A DNA stretch of 64,000 nt from Ignavibacteria bacterium (GTDB lineage: Bacteria > Bacteroidota > Ignavibacteria > Ch128b), in the NCBI GenBank assembly GCA_013177855.1, contig JABLYA010000001.1:2250983-2314982 (forward strand), written 5' to 3'. Positions within the stretch are counted from its first letter, which is position 1. The number at the start of each line of letters is the position of its first letter. Under the pieces are notes generated by a model. The model saw nothing but the letters and a program-made list of their open reading frames with translations. It was not told where the DNA came from and did not search any database. The position numbers and the translations under genes were made by a program. Shown here piece by piece: positions 2,706 to 45,734 of the stretch.

Positions 2706-3230
2706 GTGGGGAAAGTTTATAAAGCCATAGTGAATAAAAAGAGCCACTCGGAAAACTTTCAAACCCAATTAGGATATGAGTACTCCCTCTTCGGAAACTC
2801 TACTGACCTTTTCGGAAGATTATATTACCTTTTCGGAAAGATATATAACCGTTGCGGAATGATATATAGCCGTTGCGGAATCAAATATGACCCGTTCGGA
2901 TTAAAATATAACCTCTTCGGAAAGACAGATATCCTCTTCTGAATGATATATAACCATTGCGGAATCAAATATGACCTGTTCGGATTAAAATATAACCTCT
3001 TCGGAATGACATATAACCATTTCGGAAGCGTATATAACCTCATCGGAAAGATATATAACCTCTTCGGAATGACATATTACCGTTTCGGAATCGCATATAA
3101 TCTGTTCGGAACGATATATAACCGTTTCGGAAGCGTATATAACCTCTTCGGAATGATATATAACCTCTTCGGAATGATGTATTTATGGGAATATTTCATA
3201 AATATCATAAAAATTTCAATTTTTTGCTGA
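2706..3230 (+). pseudogene. Repeat-encoded open frame interrupted by one stop codon
   Basis: A GTG-initiated frame whose body is built almost entirely from heptapeptide repeats of the form F-G-x-x-Y-N-x, one per 21-bp DNA repeat. An in-frame TGA at 2940-2942 splits it: the repeat unit normally reads TTC GGA, here TTC TGA. The frame then continues as if uninterrupted to 3230 and ends in a short hydrophobic non-repeat tail. The first 20 codons are not repeated. Because the repeat length is a multiple of three, open frames appear by chance on both strands (all three minus frames of the consensus are open), so openness is weak evidence of coding. It may be a decayed or readthrough gene or simply non-coding satellite DNA. 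No known family is recognised. Confidence 0.3.
2769..3188 (+). repeat. 21-bp tandem repeat array, about 20 units
   Basis: Twenty head-to-tail 21-bp units run without spacers; the consensus is close to TTCGGAATGATATATAACC plus two variable bases. The core TCGGA (or GCGGA) and the TAT-AACC block are the best conserved; unit 1 and the last unit are degenerate. A second-order duplication is visible: the stretch from 2857 recurs from 2941 (offset 84 bp, four units) with only a few differences. In the plus frame each unit encodes FGMIYNL-like heptads. The array sits between the restriction-type gene and an unknown two-repeat protein. Confidence 0.95.
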
Positions 3231-4367: not shown

Positions 4368-5477
4368 ATGGATAATGAAATCGGGAAGAAAGATATTCGT
4401 ATAACTTTTCACACTTATGATTTTTTAGGATATTTTTTACCTGGGGCTGTGTTTTTATCTATAATTTATGTTTTTAAGAAATTAATAGAGGAATTTTATA
4501 AAGGCCCTTTTCCGCCTTTTCATTATTTAATCTCATCTTTTAAATCATACTTTTCTGGTTCTAATTCCCATTGGGCTTCTGAGGTTGTATTTCTAGTTTT
4601 ATTTATTATTTTTTGTTACTCACTCGGTCATTTAATTGCGTCTCTTTCCGCTTTTTTTCTAGATAGATTATTAGTTGGTAAATGTTATAAATATCCATAT
4701 GTGATTTTATTTAAAATAATTGGTAATAGTAATAGTAATAGTAATAACAAATTAAAAAGGGTTTTGTTTTTCTTGGTTTTTGTTTCGAACATATTGTTTT
4801 TAATAAATCTTTTCTTATTTCAAAAACAATTGTTCTTCATTTCATTAGCAGTAATTGTTCTGCTGGGAATTATATCATTATCTTACATAAATAAAATTCA
4901 TGTAGAAGAAGAGCGCGGTCAAAATAATAAAGATAATTTTCTAATATCATTTATTATAAGAATTTTTGACACTAAGCTAATAAAAAAATTAGGGGTTATT
5001 GAAAATGTGTTAAAGTATTCATTAAATATTTACAGCACTTTTGATGATAATTTTATTAATAAATTCAAAGTTGCTTATAAAGAGGTATTTGATTCAGATT
5101 TAGAACAAGATAAAGTATTAGTTTATTGGAACTGCAGAAATTATATTTATCAAAAAGGAGGCGCTTTAAATGAAATGTTAATTAATTGGTTTAATCTATA
5201 TAGTTATTCAAGAAATTTGGCCTCAAGTGTCTATTTATCGTTCATTTATATTTTAATAATTATCTTTTATCAAGCTTTCATTATTGGTGATAAAAATTTA
5301 ATAACAAATTTTTCAACATTTAGCATTCATATTTTATCCTTAAAATTATTTTTATCATCGTTAATTATTATTTCAGTTTTATTCGTTCTAAGGTACTACT
5401 ATCTTTATTATATCTTTTACAATAAAAATTTGTATAGAACATTCTTTTACTTGTACCAACAAGAAAAAAAGAAGTAA
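4368..5477 (+). CDS. Multi-pass membrane protein of unknown function
   Basis: A 369-residue protein preceded by a strong AAGGAGG ribosome-binding site. About six hydrophobic segments are visible: residues ~18-38, ~65-90, ~120-137, ~141-160, ~278-300 and ~310-335. The intervening charged loop (~170-270) is probably cytoplasmic. An Asn-Ser microsatellite (residues ~120-126, four GTAATA units) sits just before the third segment. No catalytic motif or family is recognised. It stands between a terminator and lepA and shows no obvious functional link to either. Its position near a restriction-type gene and its odd composition are compatible with an accessory gene, but nothing in the sequence proves a defence role. 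Confidence 0.7.
   Translation: MDNEIGKKDIRITFHTYDFLGYFLPGAVFLSIIYVFKKLIEEFYKGPFPPFHYLISSFKSYFSGSNSHWASEVVFLVLFIIFCYSLGHLIASLSAFFLDRLLVGKCYKYPYVILFKIIGNSNSNSNNKLKRVLFFLVFVSNILFLINLFLFQKQLFFISLAVIVLLGIISLSYINKIHVEEERGQNNKDNFLISFIIRIFDTKLIKKLGVIENVLKYSLNIYSTFDDNFINKFKVAYKEVFDSDLEQDKVLVYWNCRNYIYQKGGALNEMLINWFNLYSYSRNLASSVYLSFIYILIIIFYQAFIIGDKNLITNFSTFSIHILSLKLFLSSLIIISVLFVLRYYYLYYIFYNKNLYRTFFYLYQQEKKK
4723..4746 (+). repeat. Hexanucleotide microsatellite (GTAATA)x4
   Basis: Four perfect copies of GTAATA lie inside the membrane-protein gene. They encode alternating Asn and Ser. Because the unit is six bases, copy-number change would alter length without shifting the frame. Confidence 0.85.
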
Positions 5478-5617: not shown

Positions 5618-7411
5618 ATGCTGAACATCAGGAATTTTTGCATAATTGCTCATATTGATCACGGTAAGTCGACTTTGGCAGATAGATTGCTCGAAAGAAC
5701 AGGAGCAATATCGGAAAGAGAACTTGTCGATCAGGTTCTGGATGATATGGATCTCGAGCGTGAGCGCGGAATTACCATAAAGTCTCACGCTGTTCAAATG
5801 AAATATAAACATACAGACGGTATTGAATATACGCTTAATTTAATCGATACTCCCGGTCATGTTGATTTCACATACGAAGTTTCGCGTTCTCTTGCTGCCT
5901 GCGAAGGTGCAATATTAGTCGTAGATGCCTCTCAAGGTGTTGAAGCTCAGACCATCAGTAACCTTTATATGGCAATTGAAGCAGGTCTCGAAATTATTCC
6001 GGTTATTAATAAAATCGATCTGCCTAGTGCAGATATCGAAAATGTTTCTCAACAAATCATTGATCTAATTGGCTGTAAAAAGGAAGAGATTATTCTTGCA
6101 TCGGCAAAACAAAAAATTGGTGTCGATGAAATATTAAAAGCAATTGTTGAAAGAATTCCACCACCTGAGGATAATCGAGATAAACCTCTTCGAGCATTGA
6201 TTTTTGATTCAAAGTATGATACTTATCGCGGGGTTATTACTTATATCAGAATTTTTGATGGAGAATTAAAAGAGGGTCAAAAAATAAAATTCTTCCGGAC
6301 AGATAAAACTTTTATCGCTGAAGAAGTCGGCGTGCTTGAACTGAAACCAGTCAGAAAAGGCATTCTTGAAGCAGGAAATGTTGGTTATCTGATCGCTGGT
6401 GTAAAAGATGTTCACGATACAAAAGTAGGAGATACAATTACCACGGTTGATAATCCAGCGGCTGAACCATTACACGGATACAAAGAAATAAAACCAATGG
6501 TTTTCAGCGGATTGTATCCAACTAACAGTGATAAATATCAAGAATTAAGAGATGCTTTAGATAAATATGTTCTAAACGATGCTGCCTTAACTTATCAACC
6601 AGAAACTTCAGCAGCGCTTGGATTTGGTTTTCGTTGTGGTTTTCTTGGATTACTTCATATGGAAATTGTTCAAGAAAGACTTTCGAGAGAATTTAATCAG
6701 GATATTATCACAACAATTCCAAATGTTGAGTATCATGTGACCAAGAGAAACGGCGAAAAAATTGTTGTGGATAATCCTGCCTTTATGCCTCCATTAGGTG
6801 AAATTGATTTTATAGAAGAACCTTATGTTAAAGCTCAGATTGTTACTCCAGCTGAATATATCGGGAATATTATGAAGTTATGTATGGATAGAAGAGGAAT
6901 TCATAAAAGCACAACTTATTTGAGTCCCACTCGTGTGGATATGCAATACGAACTTCCCCTTTCCGAAATCATATTTGATTTTTATGATAAGTTAAAATCA
7001 ATCTCCCGAGGCTATGCTTCATTTGATTATGAATTCATTGGTTATCGCGAATCTGATCTTGTTAAAGTAGAAATTTTATTAAATGGTGATCCAGTTGATG
7101 CATTTTCATTTATTGTCCATCGATCTAAAGCTTATGAATGGGGGAGAAAACTTTGTTCTAAATTGAAGGAACTTATCCCTCGTCAACTTTTCGAGGTTGT
7201 AATTCAAGCAGCCATTGGTAGTAAAGTAATTGCTCGTGATGTAATCAAACCACTTAGAAAAAATGTTCTTGCAAAATGTTATGGCGGAGATGTTACTCGA
7301 AAAAGAAAACTTCTTGAAAAGCAAAAAGAAGGCAAGAAGAGAATGAAGCAGGTTGGAAATGTAGAAATTCCGCAGGAAGCTTTCCTTGCTATCCTATCTA
7401 TGGAAGATTGA
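5618..7411 (+). CDS. lepA: Elongation factor 4 (LepA), back-translocating GTPase
   Basis: Ribosome-associated GTPase of the translation-factor superfamily, 597 residues, the normal length for LepA. Motifs in order: G1 AHIDHGKST (residues ~10-18), switch I RGIT, G3 DTPGH (~75), G4 NKID (~130), then EF-Tu domain II, EF-G III/V-like regions, and the LepA-specific C-terminal domain with [18 protein letters not shown]. The EF-G domain IV is absent, which separates it from EF-G. The start is an ATG after CGGAG. lepB follows 105 bases downstream in the same direction, an arrangement common in bacteria and the origin of the lepA name. Confidence 0.98.
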
Positions 7412-15105: not shown

Positions 15106-15129
15106 ATTAACTGATTAACTGATTAACTG
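15106..15129. repeat. 8-bp tandem repeat (ATTAACTG)x3
   Basis: Three perfect copies of ATTAACTG lie in the intergenic gap downstream of the small exported protein. They include the tetramer TTAA and could be a slippage-prone tract. No function is visible. Confidence 0.85.
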
Positions 15130-15229
15130 AGACATCAAAAAAATCTTTGGTTTCAATCATTTGAAATTTGCTTAATTAGATATAAAGAATTTTCTTAAAC
15201 TAAATTGAAAATTTTTGAAAGGAATTACT

Positions 15230-40886: not shown

Positions 40887-40920
40887 TTTGACAGATTGGA
40901 AAAAAATAATTATATCTTTT
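40887..40920 (+). promoter_or_regulatory. Possible promoter of the subtilase cassette
   Basis: TTTG (40887-40890) and TATCTTTT (40913-40920) resemble the Bacteroidota -33 and -7 boxes; the -7 box differs from consensus at its last base and the spacer is 22 bases. It lies just after a terminator and before the cassette's ribosome-binding site. Confidence 0.3.
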
Positions 40921-40940
40921 ATGAGATTGAGGAGGATAAA

Positions 40941-41030
40941 ATGAAAAATTTCAAATCAATTTTCATTTCACTTATATATATATCATTAATTTTTCCCACC
41001 TTTATTCCCAATCTAATTTTAAGTTTGTAA
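40941..41030 (+). CDS. Signal-peptide mini-ORF, out of frame with the subtilase
   Basis: From an ATG after a perfect AGGAGG the frame encodes a 29-residue hydrophobic signal-like peptide (MKNFKSIFISLI...) and stops at 41028-41030. The mature protein continues in the +2 frame, where SHLYSQSNF gives the expected signal-peptidase site. Loss of one AT unit (or gain of one base, for example in the T5 run at 40989-40993) would join the two frames and give a complete pre-protein. As written the gene is in an off state or frameshifted. Confidence 0.6.
   Translation: MKNFKSIFISLIYISLIFPTFIPNLILSL
40974..40983 (+). repeat. (AT)5 dinucleotide tract inside the signal-peptide codons
   Basis: Five AT units between the start codon and the signal-peptidase site. 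The paralogous module has eleven. Units are two bases, so slippage changes the reading frame; n=4 or 7 would be in frame with the subtilase, n=5 is not. Confidence 0.9.
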
Positions 41031-41050
41031 ATTTTGAAGGCCAGCAGTTT

Positions 41051-42850
41051 ATGGTTTCTGCGAATGAACTTTGTGTGAAATTAAAAAATGGAGTAAGTGA
41101 TCAAATATTGCAAAATTATGTCGCTAAATATGGAGGAGTAGTTGACCCCAAGGATCATAATTCACCTTTAAAATGGCGTGTTGTTTATTTCCCTGAACCA
41201 GTATCGATTGAGAATATGTTTTTAACATTTAAATCCAACTCACTATTTGAAAAAGTTGAATTCAACCATGCAGGAATTTTACAGGAAATAGTTCCCAACG
41301 ACCCAATGTTCAATCAACAATGGGCATTAAAAAATACTTATTACCCAGCTGCTGATATTGGATTTACAAAAGCATGGGAAATCACAACTGGAAATAATGA
41401 TGTAATTATTGCAATTTTTGACTCTGGTATTCCAATGAATGATCAAGATTATTCTTTATCTCACCCTGAATTAAATGATTTAAATAAAATCATATTAGGG
41501 ATTAATGTTACAAACGAAATAGACAGCTTAAGGGATAGGATTGGGCATGGTACCAAAATAGCAGGTATAATTGGAGCGAAAACCAATAATAATGAAGGTA
41601 TAGCAGGTGTTTGTTGGAATTGTAAAATGTGGATAATTAAAATTTTCGAAGGCGCGGGTTATACAAAGGCAAGTTACTTAAGAAGAGCTATAGAGTATTT
41701 AGTGACTGAGAAAAATATTATTGGTACAAATAAGTCAATAATTTTAAATGCATCACTGTCTTTTAGTTATAATGACAATATTTCACAAATTTCACAAATT
41801 ATAGATGCTGTTGAGCTTGCTAATAAAGAAGGTGTATTAATAAATGTAGCGATGGGAAATCATTTTGGTGTTTCTAAATATGAATTTAATTATTTAGCGT
41901 ATTTATCTCTAAATTATAATAATATTCTCTCAATAGGTGCAACCGATGTTTCAGGAGATCGAGCATTTTATTCAAACACAGGGTATCATATAAGTGTTAG
42001 TGCACCTGGTGGTGGTCATCATCAAATATTAAGTACAATGCCAGATTATTTGAATAACAACGATTTTTATGGCTTTGGATATGGTACATCATTATCAACA
42101 GCTTTTGTAAGTGGATTATGCGGTTTGATTCTAAGTCTTGAAAATTATGAACCAAATCTTATCCGCAAGATTATTGAGAAGACAGCTAAAGATAAAGGTA
42201 GTCCAGGATTTGATACACTTTATGGCTTTGGAATTATAGATGCTGCAAAGGCATTAATATTAACCAAAGCTCGGCCAAAAAATCTTAGGATCACAAATTA
42301 TAATAACAGACCTAAACTTATGTGGGATCTAATAGATTCTGCTATTTCATATAATATTTATCGTGGAGTTGATGATGGATATAAGACTGAATATTTTTTA
42401 ATAGGTAGAACAACTTCAAATGTTAATTTTTATGTTGATTACTCACAAAGAATTGAATCGCAAACAGGTTCGCCATACTTAATGAGTTACCGAGTCACAG
42501 CTAATTTTAACAATAACTTAGAATCTGCTTTTTCTAACAAAGCAAATATTTTAGTTTCTATGCCGACCCTGGAAAAATTTAATTTTTCGAATTCTTTTAA
42601 ATTACATCAAAATTTTCCAAATCCGTTTAATAATTCTACTACCATAAAATTAGAAATACCTGAACCGGGTGTTTTAGTTTTCGAAATTTATAATATTGTT
42701 GGGGAAAAGATAATGTCAATGGAAAAAACCTTTTTTAATCCTGAAGAGTATGAACTTGATTTGAATCTGAATTTACCGAGTGGCGTATATTTTTATTATG
42801 CACGAATTAATCAATTAAAAGCCTTTAGAAAGATGGTTTTAATTAACTAA
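41051..42850 (+). CDS. Secreted subtilisin-family (S8) peptidase with type IX sorting domain
   Basis: Serine protease of 599 residues counted from the first in-frame ATG. The natural start is almost certainly the ATG at 40941, now out of frame, so this version lacks its signal peptide. The open frame extends upstream through FVNFEGQQF. Catalytic residues: Asp124 (IFDSG), His166 (GHGTK), oxyanion Asn270 (MGNH), Ser347 (YGTSLST). A fibronectin-like region (~410-505) precedes the C-terminal sorting domain, which begins HQNFPNPF (~519) and ends FRKMVLIN. All catalytic residues are intact, so the body is under selection or only recently silenced. A lipoprotein gene follows by 17 bases. Confidence 0.88.
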   Translation: MVSANELCVKLKNGVSDQILQNYVAKYGGVVDPKDHNSPLKWRVVYFPEPVSIENMFLTFKSNSLFEKVEFNHAGILQEIVPNDPMFNQQWALKNTYYPAADIGFTKAWEITTGNNDVIIAIFDSGIPMNDQDYSLSHPELNDLNKIILGINVTNEIDSLRDRIGHGTKIAGIIGAKTNNNEGIAGVCWNCKMWIIKIFEGAGYTKASYLRRAIEYLVTEKNIIGTNKSIILNASLSFSYNDNISQISQIIDAVELANKEGVLINVAMGNHFGVSKYEFNYLAYLSLNYNNILSIGATDVSGDRAFYSNTGYHISVSAPGGGHHQILSTMPDYLNNNDFYGFGYGTSLSTAFVSGLCGLILSLENYEPNLIRKIIEKTAKDKGSPGFDTLYGFGIIDAAKALILTKARPKNLRITNYNNRPKLMWDLIDSAISYNIYRGVDDGYKTEYFLIGRTTSNVNFYVDYSQRIESQTGSPYLMSYRVTANFNNNLESAFSNKANILVSMPTLEKFNFSNSFKLHQNFPNPFNNSTTIKLEIPEPGVLVFEIYNIVGEKIMSMEKTFFNPEEYELDLNLNLPSGVYFYYARINQLKAFRKMVLIN

Positions 42851-42867
42851 TTCGGGGAGATAGAAAA

Positions 42868-44034
42868 ATGAGAAAAATTTTATTCATAATTTTTGTTCCT
42901 ATTTTCTTTTTAGGTTGTCAAAAAGACGAGGTAATTACACCTGATGAATCAGGACTAAAACCACCTCAGCAAAAAAACGAGATTGATCTAATTGGTTTTG
43001 CCGGTCACGATATAAAAGCAATTGCAGTAAATGTCAAAGAACCTAATAATATATTGATTTCAACTGCCAAACCCGGCGAAAGAATCTACATAAGCAGTAA
43101 TTATGGTTTAAGTTGGTCTATTGCAAAGGATTCATTCTATTCCCTTTGTTTGTCTTTTGACTTACATAAACCATCAAATATTTATATCGCACATAACTCC
43201 GGTCCTTCCTATGCTCTGATTCCTCCTTTGCTATTAAAGTCGAATGACTATGGTCAAACCTGGGTAAGTGCAGATAGTGGAATTTTAGTCGGTGCAGGGG
43301 AAAGACATATTACAACAATTTCTATGGATTATTTTAACCAGAATTTTATTTATTTAGTCGCTACGGCTAATTTTAATATTCAACCATCTAACTCATTTGC
43401 ATATTTTTCTCAAACTTTTATTTCTACAAACGGAGGAGTTAGTTTTTCTCAAGACATTGACATTAACATATTAAATAGTATAGGGTGGGTGTTTGTTGGT
43501 GATTTTGCAACCAGTAATCTTAAAACAGGAACAATTTATGCCGCAATTATTGGCGACAATAATAACTATGATATAGCTGAAAGTTCAGATTTTGGTGTTA
43601 GCTGGACCGCTAAAAATATAATTGACAATTGGTATTCTGATTTTATCAGAGTTTACAATAATTTCGTTATTCTAAAGGTAACTGATTATCCCAGATTGAA
43701 TAAAGAACTTATTTATAAATATAAAGGCAGAATTCTTCTAAGTAAGGATTTTGGTAATTCATTTACAATTCTAGATACTAATTTAATTGATTATTCAGAT
43801 GTCAATGATATGTTAATTACGCCAGAAGGATACATTATTTTTACTGCCACATTAAATTCCGACCCATCTAAGTCAACAATCTATATTTCAAAGGATGGTG
43901 GTATTAGCTGGCAAAACTTAGTGAATAACGATTTTGACAGTAAAACACTTCTTGCCTACGATAGCAAAAACAAGTTTCTCTATGTTGTAAAGGATAGAGT
44001 GAATAAAGGTCTCTACCGAATTAAACTAAATTAA
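42868..44034 (+). CDS. Asp-box (BNR/sortilin-like) repeat lipoprotein
   Basis: A 388-residue lipoprotein: lipobox FFLGC with the acylated Cys at 17. The mature part is a beta-propeller-like protein with at least five Asp-box-type motifs: SSNYGLSW, SNDYGQTW, SSDFGVSW, SKDFGNSF and SKDGGISW. These repeats occur in sialidases and VPS10/sortilin domains, where they are structural rather than catalytic. A GGGGAG site precedes the ATG. It is probably cotranscribed with the subtilase. A second Asp-box lipoprotein lies after the second cassette module, so the two may be diverged paralogues. Confidence 0.85.
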   Translation: MRKILFIIFVPIFFLGCQKDEVITPDESGLKPPQQKNEIDLIGFAGHDIKAIAVNVKEPNNILISTAKPGERIYISSNYGLSWSIAKDSFYSLCLSFDLHKPSNIYIAHNSGPSYALIPPLLLKSNDYGQTWVSADSGILVGAGERHITTISMDYFNQNFIYLVATANFNIQPSNSFAYFSQTFISTNGGVSFSQDIDINILNSIGWVFVGDFATSNLKTGTIYAAIIGDNNNYDIAESSDFGVSWTAKNIIDNWYSDFIRVYNNFVILKVTDYPRLNKELIYKYKGRILLSKDFGNSFTILDTNLIDYSDVNDMLITPEGYIIFTATLNSDPSKSTIYISKDGGISWQNLVNNDFDSKTLLAYDSKNKFLYVVKDRVNKGLYRIKLN

Positions 44035-44469
44035 AATTCTAATTAGGAACTGATGGCTTCAAGGCTAACCAAAATTTGGTTAGCCTTTTAAGTTTCGGTT
44101 ACTGACCTAAATTTAGTGAGCTCACTCTCAATCTGCTCTAGGTAATTTCTACTCGGAATAATCAGAAGCATTCTATTTTAGTTTAAAGAGTTGTCGCCAG
44201 CGTAGATAATCAGAATAATAATTTTACGAAATGCTGGTTCAATTTAATCTGTATTTTAAATTTCAGAAAGAATTAAGTTAGAAAATAAATTTTGTTTCAA
44301 TAAATTGTTTGGCAGTGGGAAAATCTTTTTGCGAGAATGCAAGTTCTAATTTTATGTCTAAGGATTCTTTTGATAGAGAAATTTAAAAAGTATAAAGATC
44401 AAAAGTGATTTCTTATTTGCTGTTACAGAAAAAAATAATTATATTTCTTTTGAAATTAAGGAGGATAAA
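44035..44469. other. Intergenic region with terminator and cassette promoter area
   Basis: Contains the terminator at 44061-44090 and, at its end, the region matching the upstream part of the first cassette. A possible -33 TTTG (44416-44419) and -7-like TTCTTTTG (44445-44452) are present with a long 25-base spacer. The middle (44100-44400) is AT-rich without any recognisable coding remnant. Confidence 0.5.
44061..44090 (+). terminator. Rho-independent terminator
   Basis: A 10-bp stem AAGGCTAACC/GGTTAGCCTT with an A/T-only loop and a short T-run. It closes the first cassette. The stem resembles the terminator at 40819, sharing AAGGCT and AGCCTT. Confidence 0.85.
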
Positions 44470-44625
44470 ATGAAAAATTTCAAATCAATTTTAATTTCAC
44501 TCATATATATATATATATATATATCATTAATTTTTCCCACCTTTATTCCCAATCTAATTTTAAGTTTGTAAATTTTGAAGGCCAGCAGTTTATGGTTTCT
44601 ACGAATGAACTTTGTGTGAAATTGA
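44425..44625 (+). repeat. Cassette 5' module, copy 2
   Basis: Near-identical copy of 40895-41086: the same AGGAGGATAAA, ATG (44470), signal-peptide codons, T5 run and first codons of the mature protein (VSTNELCVKLK against VSANELCVKLK). The AT tract is expanded. Confidence 0.92.
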
Positions 44626-44671
44626 AAACAAATACATTTACTTATAAAGATAAAATTGTTTTAATAAAATG
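44470..44671 (+). pseudogene. Collapsed second secreted-protein gene
   Basis: The ATG at 44470 opens a signal-like peptide that stops at 44569-44571. As in copy 1, the mature frame is the +2 frame. That frame (ATG 44592) reads the same first 12 mature residues as the intact subtilase, then jumps to KTNTFTYKDKIVLIK and stop. The ending KIVLIK is what the last residues of a type IX sorting domain look like (compare RKMVLIN in the intact copy). The simplest reading is an internal deletion that joined the first codons to the last codons of a former paralogue. Confidence 0.65.
44503..44524 (+). repeat. (AT)11 dinucleotide tract in copy 2
   Basis: Eleven uninterrupted AT units in the signal-peptide codons, against five in copy 1. 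The 12-base difference keeps both copies in the same, out-of-frame, register. A tract of this length is expected to be unstable by slipped-strand mispairing. Confidence 0.95.
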
Positions 44672-44684
44672 AGGAGGTATTAAG

Positions 44685-45734
44685 ATGTTAAAGTTAAATT
44701 ATATCTTAATGTTTGTGATTTTTTTCATAACCGCTGGATGCAAGGATAATGAACCCGTTTCATACGAGAACCCAGAAAATAGGTTGGAACTGGTTTATAA
44801 ATTTGACAATCATATAATCAATACCTTGATATTAAATAAAAAATATCCATCTCATATTGCAATGCTTTCTAATGGAGGGAAAATATTTTATTCAACTGAT
44901 TATGGGAAAGAATTTGTTTCACAGCTTCATATCGGATTATGGGCAATTTCATTTGACAATGTAACCACAAAATTATACATCGGTACATCGGGCAATGGTT
45001 ATGTTACACCAGATTTTGGTCAAACTCGGGTGGAATTTATTAATTATGGAGTATTATCTTTTTATCCATTAAACGATACAGTAATGTTATTCATTAAAAA
45101 GGATTATTTGGATTTATTTTACGCAGATCTATTCTGGTTAAATTTACAGGATTATAGATGGGGGCGGTTCATTGGACTTTTAGATACTTTTTATAATCTT
45201 GGTTTTCAAAATGTTCCACCCATCTATGATATATCGAATACAAATAAATCCGGTAAATTACACATATTCTTTTCAGAAAAGTATTTTGGTGGTATATGGC
45301 ATACAGAAGATTACTTTAATACATTTAACTCATATCACTCTCGATCCAATAAACATTTTATTAAGCACAGATTAAGCAGTGAAGGTGGTTTAGGCCTTGC
45401 TTTAGTCGAAGATTTAGATCAATCAAAGAAGCAGCTTTACATTACCTTCGATCTATTTAAGAATATTTCATTAGTTGAAAATAGAATATTAGAGAACTTT
45501 AAGATTAATGACTTTTATATACTCAATGAAGATGAGTTTATAGTTTCTGGGGTATCATTGACTGATAATATTTCATATTTATTGTTGTTTAGGAATAAAG
45601 GCACAAGTTATGTAGAACTTTATAAATCAGAAGGGGAAGTAACGAAATTAGCTTTTGATAGTCTAAATAAATGGATTTATTTTATTAAAATTTCTGGAAA
45701 CAACAGTGAGCTTTATCGTTACTCGTTGAAATAA
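44685..45734 (+). CDS. Exported lipoprotein, possibly Asp-box-like
   Basis: A 349-residue lipoprotein with lipobox FITAGC (Cys ~19). The mature part has all-beta character with at least one Asp-box-like motif (YSTDYGKEF), suggesting distant relation to the 388-residue lipoprotein of the first cassette. A GAGGAGG site precedes the ATG, inside the end of the collapsed gene, so it occupies the same position relative to the module as its counterpart. Function unknown. Confidence 0.75.
   Translation: MLKLNYILMFVIFFITAGCKDNEPVSYENPENRLELVYKFDNHIINTLILNKKYPSHIAMLSNGGKIFYSTDYGKEFVSQLHIGLWAISFDNVTTKLYIGTSGNGYVTPDFGQTRVEFINYGVLSFYPLNDTVMLFIKKDYLDLFYADLFWLNLQDYRWGRFIGLLDTFYNLGFQNVPPIYDISNTNKSGKLHIFFSEKYFGGIWHTEDYFNTFNSYHSRSNKHFIKHRLSSEGGLGLALVEDLDQSKKQLYITFDLFKNISLVENRILENFKINDFYILNEDEFIVSGVSLTDNISYLLLFRNKGTSYVELYKSEGEVTKLAFDSLNKWIYFIKISGNNSELYRYSLK

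Follow-up and report, generated by a model that had tools for sequence, protein, structure and literature searches.

Most known cases in which repeat slippage switches an export signal come from host-associated pathogens. The closest described system is oipA of Helicobacter pylori, in which CT repeats within the signal-peptide codons toggle the reading frame (PMC10564699). The locus described here, in a window of 64,000 nucleotides from the genome of an Ignavibacteria bacterium, resembles oipA in that a surface-protein gene begins with signal-peptide codons that contain a dinucleotide repeat, whose length sets the frame of the leader; short tracts of five units occur in oipA too (PMC10564699). 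It differs in the repeat unit, which is AT here and CT there, and in that oipA encodes an outer-membrane protein of an unrelated pathogen whose length variation is documented across hundreds of isolates, whereas the present locus is known from one assembly (PMC10564699). Bacteroides varies the phase of surface features by means of invertible promoters (reviewed in PMC11868660). This parallel concerns surface features of Bacteroidota, but the Bacteroides systems depend on site-specific DNA inversion, in contrast to the repeat slippage proposed here (PMC11868660). The KP-43-type peptidases of Bergeyella are likewise subtilases regarded as putative type IX cargo, a likeness by description, although the abstract of that study describes no repeat-set leader frame (PMC11982257). 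In the open-access literature, we found no paper on repeat switching of export signals in Bacteroidota, nor any that treats simple sequence repeats and phase variation together with type IX secretion. The mechanism itself is already known from H. pylori oipA, and the subtilase locus would be a further, if incomplete, member of that group.

The mature frame of the subtilase gene (copy 1) runs on the forward strand from the Gln codon of an HLYS/Q junction to the stop codon (positions 41009 to 42850 of the window), with its first in-frame ATG at 41051. Profile matches to Peptidase_S8 (PF00082; 146.8 bits, cut-off of 21.8) and to the C-terminal sorting domain Por_Secre_tail (PF18962; 32.2 bits, cut-off of 27) both exceed their thresholds and agree with the predicted identity as a type IX-secreted subtilase, a class assignment (S8/T9SS) made from the mature part of the protein. 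The catalytic-residue motifs FDSG, GHGT and GTS were found by sequence reading, and approximately 620 codons are free of a second lesion. The open stretch of this frame extends from 40940 to 42850; it reads ...INFSHLYSQSNFKFVNFEGQQ, with ATG, GTG and TTG all absent before 41051. Copy 1 therefore has no in-frame Sec signal peptide, as the signal peptide exists solely out of frame. The HLYS/Q junction fits the signal peptides of this genome, which often end in SQ or AQ. Exposure of a glutamine by signal peptidase is described for Bacteroidetes as the Q-rule (PMC5837995). As the abstract of that study restricts the rule to Bacteroidetes proper, its extension to this Ignavibacteria bacterium would be an extrapolation (PMC5837995). 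Directly downstream of the subtilase lies a lipoprotein gene (42868 to 44034, forward strand) with weak BNR/sortilin-like matches, the match to Sortilin-Vps10 being below its curated cut-off.

The leader module is found in two copies, both on the forward strand and both preceded by a strong ribosome-binding site. In copy 1 (40930 to 40943), AGGAGG at 40930 to 40935 and an ATG at 40941 are followed by 11 codons, an (AT)5 tract in the signal-peptide codons (40974 to 40983), CATTAA, a T5 run (40990 to 40994) and then CCCACCTTTATTCCCAA. Copy 2 (44459 to 44472) has AGGAGG at 44459 to 44464 and an ATG at 44470, with an (AT)11 tract in the signal-peptide codons (44503 to 44524) and a T5 run at 44531 to 44535. 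Read from its ATG, copy 1 yields the 29-amino-acid peptide MKNFKSIFISLIYISLIFPTFIPNLILSL, terminated by TAA (open reading frame [ORF] at 40941 to 41030, stop at 41028 to 41030), while copy 2 yields the 33-amino-acid peptide MKNFKSILISLIYIYIYISLIFPTFIPNLILSL followed by a stop (44470 to 44571). The original prediction of two near-identical 5' modules about 3.5 kb apart, with 5 AT units in copy 1 and 11 in copy 2 and with each signal-peptide ATG out of the mature frame, was thus confirmed by sequence reading and translation: the two ATGs are 3,529 bp apart, and their frames stop after 29 and 33 codons. Tract lengths of 5 and 11 units leave the same remainder on division by 3 and hence represent one phase, so that both copies are off.

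Translation of altered tracts showed that 4, 7, 10 or 13 AT units fuse the leader with the mature frame, giving ...HLYSQSNFKFVNFEGQQ, whereas all other unit numbers stop early. Lengths 4, 7 and 10 had been predicted to do so, and 13 can be added. One AT unit fewer therefore joins the leader and mature frames in either copy. Replacement of T5 by T6 likewise restores the joined frame, as had also been proposed, and a one-base lesion in the T run and a change in AT units are indistinguishable. The expected signal-peptidase site is present in the mature frame (...SHLYS/QSNF...), and relatives with intact leaders indicate that a signal peptide should precede this mature frame. The repeat unit is not a multiple of three and lies inside the 5' coding region, and a change in unit number switches a long open frame between on and off, as is characteristic of translational repeat contingency loci. 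With respect to the tract length needed for hypermutability, copy 2 (n = 11) is long but bodiless, while copy 1 (n = 5) is marginal, though rare in the genome.

The 3.66-Mb genome contains no copy of the 5' module beyond these two. For composition, sampled stretches of the genome were used, and in 1.32 Mb AT tracts of 3, 4, 5, 6 and 11 units were counted 703, 31, 1, 2 and 2 times, respectively; two of the five tracts with at least five units are those of the two copies. Tracts of at least eight units were found at three places genome-wide. The two other long AT tracts of the genome were considered as signal-peptide tracts and rejected, as neither lies in a signal peptide. One of them is on a contig with a phage-like look. 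The other, an (AT)11 tract at L084 2958 to 2979, approximately 6.5 kb beyond the end of the window, precedes a further type IX-tailed gene by approximately 190 bp, and promoter-spacing or leader variation is possible there. Several further repeats were seen: a run of eleven G at L163 11357 to 11367, approximately 65 bp upstream of a minus-strand lipoprotein gene and unusual in a genome of 32% G+C, which could vary promoter spacing; C9 directly followed by (AC)6 at L101 3154 to 3174, where no long open frame begins; and, within the window, an intergenic 21-base repeat (ACCTTTTCGGAATGATATATA) present 18 times at 2806 to 3182, three intergenic units of ATTAACTG at 15106 to 15130 and four units of GTAATA within an ORF at 4723 to 4746.

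In 1.26 Mb of sampled genome, 39 of the 43 long ORFs with a type IX tail carried a signal peptide whose ATG is in frame. Copy 1 is one of the four that did not; the others are a gene with a TTG start, a gene with a stop immediately after the signal peptide and a gene with a mid-gene frameshift. Therefore, a repeat-broken leader is exceptional in this genome. Broken surface genes as such are not unknown in it. Single in-frame stops were observed in surface or type IX-tailed genes of L257 (minus strand, near 6592), L084 (4298 to 6481), L026, L027 and L032, one of them exactly after the signal peptide, which suggests ongoing decay or something stranger.

The description of the locus as a duplicated surface-protease cassette proved overstated, as the duplication is confined to the 5' ~190 bp and copy 2 contains no protease. 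Instead, it consists of the leader and first mature codons, followed by TNTFTYKDKIVLIK and a TGA stop at 44670 to 44672; its mature-frame fragment spans 44550 to 44672 on the forward strand. Alignment showed that the copies are approximately 97% identical from the ATG onward, with 4 substitutions in approximately 147 bp outside the tract, and that identity stops after GTGTGAAATT(A/G)AAAA. In the leader upstream of the ATG, 5 of 42 positions have changed (Fisher P = 0.03 against the coding part), so that the copies appear to have diverged less in the coding part than ahead of the ATG, a weak sign of constraint or conversion. The tail of copy 2 resembles the C-terminal end of type IX sorting domains. 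The corresponding motif matched 24 of 656 long ORFs and 8 of 76,079 short segments; as it had been widened to admit the copy 2 tail, this comparison serves as a lead and not as a test. As the body is missing and the frame ends in a type IX-like tail, copy 2 is probably a relic of an in-frame internal deletion in a second such gene. The lipoproteins flanking the two copies (the second at 44685 to 45734, forward strand, found by profile match and comparison) are only weakly similar, and since the modules are approximately 97% identical, the 5' module would have been copied or converted recently. The stop codon of copy 2 overlaps the GAGGAGG ribosome-binding site of this next lipoprotein gene (44670 to 44685), and translation of the fragment could therefore be coupled to that of the lipoprotein gene.

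In the subtilase homologs L033, L034, L035, L040, L047, L049, L166 and L168, leader and mature protein share one reading frame. An in-frame leader is therefore most likely ancestral, with the break located downstream of the ATG and ahead of LYSQ. Among full-length homologs, the closest is L033 (genome G032, the same locus as L185), which carries a (TC)7 tract within its signal peptide MKFPINSFCKKMLLSIFLFSLSLSAQ, in frame. The genome collections compared hold one genome per species. No direct ortholog of the locus was found in the family (six genomes), and a class-wide search of 391 genomes returned none at useful identity, the best matches reaching 38 to 41% over the N-terminal two thirds; a scan of named genomes gave distant subtilases alone (25 to 32%). 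The comparison of homologous loci called for by the original prediction recovered in-frame leaders and, in other genes of the class, tracts that vary, but no direct ortholog at useful identity among the 391 class genomes.

Dinucleotide tracts in export-signal codons are probably a more important finding at the level of the class (TC7 to TC14, AC9) than the protease locus itself. Among the 391 class genomes, (TC)n with n of at least 7 downstream of ATGA was found in 18 genomes, compared to 9 for the backward control, and at eight loci a long open frame followed the hydrophobic leader in which the tract lay. One exported protein has orthologs in three species of one genus, and their tract at a shared site is (TC)13 in L190 (in frame), (TC)14 in L191 (out of frame) and (AC)9 in L218 (in frame). 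L191, whose mature protein is 93% identical, also has an in-frame ATG upstream, but a clear ribosome-binding site precedes the out-of-frame ATG. The match of this protein to a C-terminal sorting domain is weak and below the cut-off. In orthologous lipoproteins of another genus, the tract is (TC)12 in L197 (in frame), (TC)13 in L196 (out of frame) and (TC)14 in L195 (in frame from a second ATG only), and a further leader, L199, has (TC)8 out of frame. L187 is also among the loci of other genomes with a dinucleotide tract in export-signal codons. When a repeat stays at its site while its unit has changed and its frame varies, this is the trace expected from selection for switching. Since tract length and frame vary among orthologs, members of this class probably switch export signals by means of dinucleotide repeats.

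The subtilase locus shares with these leaders (L190/L191/L218, L195/L196/L197, L199 and L185) a dinucleotide tract in the export-signal codons of exported or lipoprotein products, with in-frame and out-of-frame states occurring among their orthologs, and L185 is a homologous subtilase. It differs in the repeat unit, in that the tracts of the class are usually longer (7 to 14 units) and in that, L185 excepted, other genes are concerned; those leaders are also known from assemblies alone. The class-wide (TC)n and (AC)n leaders are the strongest support for the mechanism, yet they come from other genes. For (AT)n tracts of at least 7 units near ATGAA, hits across the class were mostly intergenic and near the control level, with no pattern like that of (TC)n, and none of the G/C runs of at least 8 that were examined had a broken leader.

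Our preferred reading, which we hold at close to even confidence, is that the AT-repeat frame break in the subtilase leader marks a slippage-type contingency locus, active now or until recently. Units gained or lost during replication would shift the leader codons into or out of the reading frame of the mature protease. In the state sequenced, the gene would be off, yielding the 29-residue peptide that ends at 41030 and at most an internally started, nonexported protein from 41051. In the on state (n = 3k+1), a complete signal peptide ending in HLYS/Q would precede an exported Sec/type IX protease. Copy 2 would be a truncated relative of copy 1 that owes its shared 5' module to a recent duplication or to gene conversion. 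The DNA itself shows the reading frames, both tracts, an intact protease body and the leaders of the homologs. From these we infer actual switching, and AT slippage instead of a T5 indel as the cause of the break. Switching is favored because the break sits at a genome-rare tract in both copies, because the protease body is open with its catalytic motifs and tail, because homolog leaders are in frame, one of them with (TC)7, while class analogues vary in frame, and because nearly all type IX-tailed ORFs sampled keep an in-frame ATG leader. It is weakened because five units should slip rarely, because the mutable (AT)11 sits on the protease-less relic while the intact subtilase has the short tract, and because the class-wide frequency of (AT)n tracts near start codons barely departs from the control.

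Recent gene decay explains the break almost as well and is a serious, if somewhat less likely, rival. An indel in the AT or T run would have destroyed the leader frame once, ahead of the copying of the 5' module, making the protease a young pseudogene and copy 2 an older wreck. The identical phase of both copies, which a single old lesion explains, and the loss of the copy 2 body fit decay and count against switching, as do other surface genes of this genome that are broken by in-frame stops or frameshifts without repeats: stops occur inside L026, L027, L032, L257 and L223, and L084 contains a broken protease gene. However, decay would not by itself predict a copy 1 mature frame still free of a second lesion, a break that coincides with one of only five AT tracts of at least five units in 1.32 Mb or, as weak evidence of constraint or conversion, the greater similarity of the coding part of the modules.

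Recoding, in which ribosomes would slip one base back on T5 (ATT TTT CCC) and so make some exported protease from the present sequence, is improbable. A -1 slip at TTT runs directly into SHLYSQ, and the slip site is identical in both copies, but an in-frame X XXY YYZ heptamer is absent, downstream RNA folding is no better than that of shuffled sequences (z = 0.74 and 0.60), and the leaders of the relatives checked are plainly in frame. Neither copy thus combines the slippery heptamer and downstream stimulatory structure of programmed -1 frameshifting. That the AT or T run was missequenced or misassembled is equally hard to credit: repeats and homopolymers are error-prone, but copy 1 holds just (AT)5 and T5, both copies show the same phase, and the assembly is not indel-rich, with ORFs of at least 100 amino acids covering 85% of sampled bases (88% in a congener), a median ORF length equal to that of the congener and a normal homopolymer spectrum. 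Most improbable of all is a working pair, in which the (AT)11 of copy 2 would generate lengths passed to the protease gene by gene conversion while its phase also tuned the downstream lipoprotein.

If switching is true of this locus and of the class (TC)n and (AC)n leaders, the mechanism would also operate on lipoproteins and type IX-secreted cargo in a further lineage that bears a T9SS. Gene-calling pipelines would then label such off-phase genes as leaderless or as pseudogenes.
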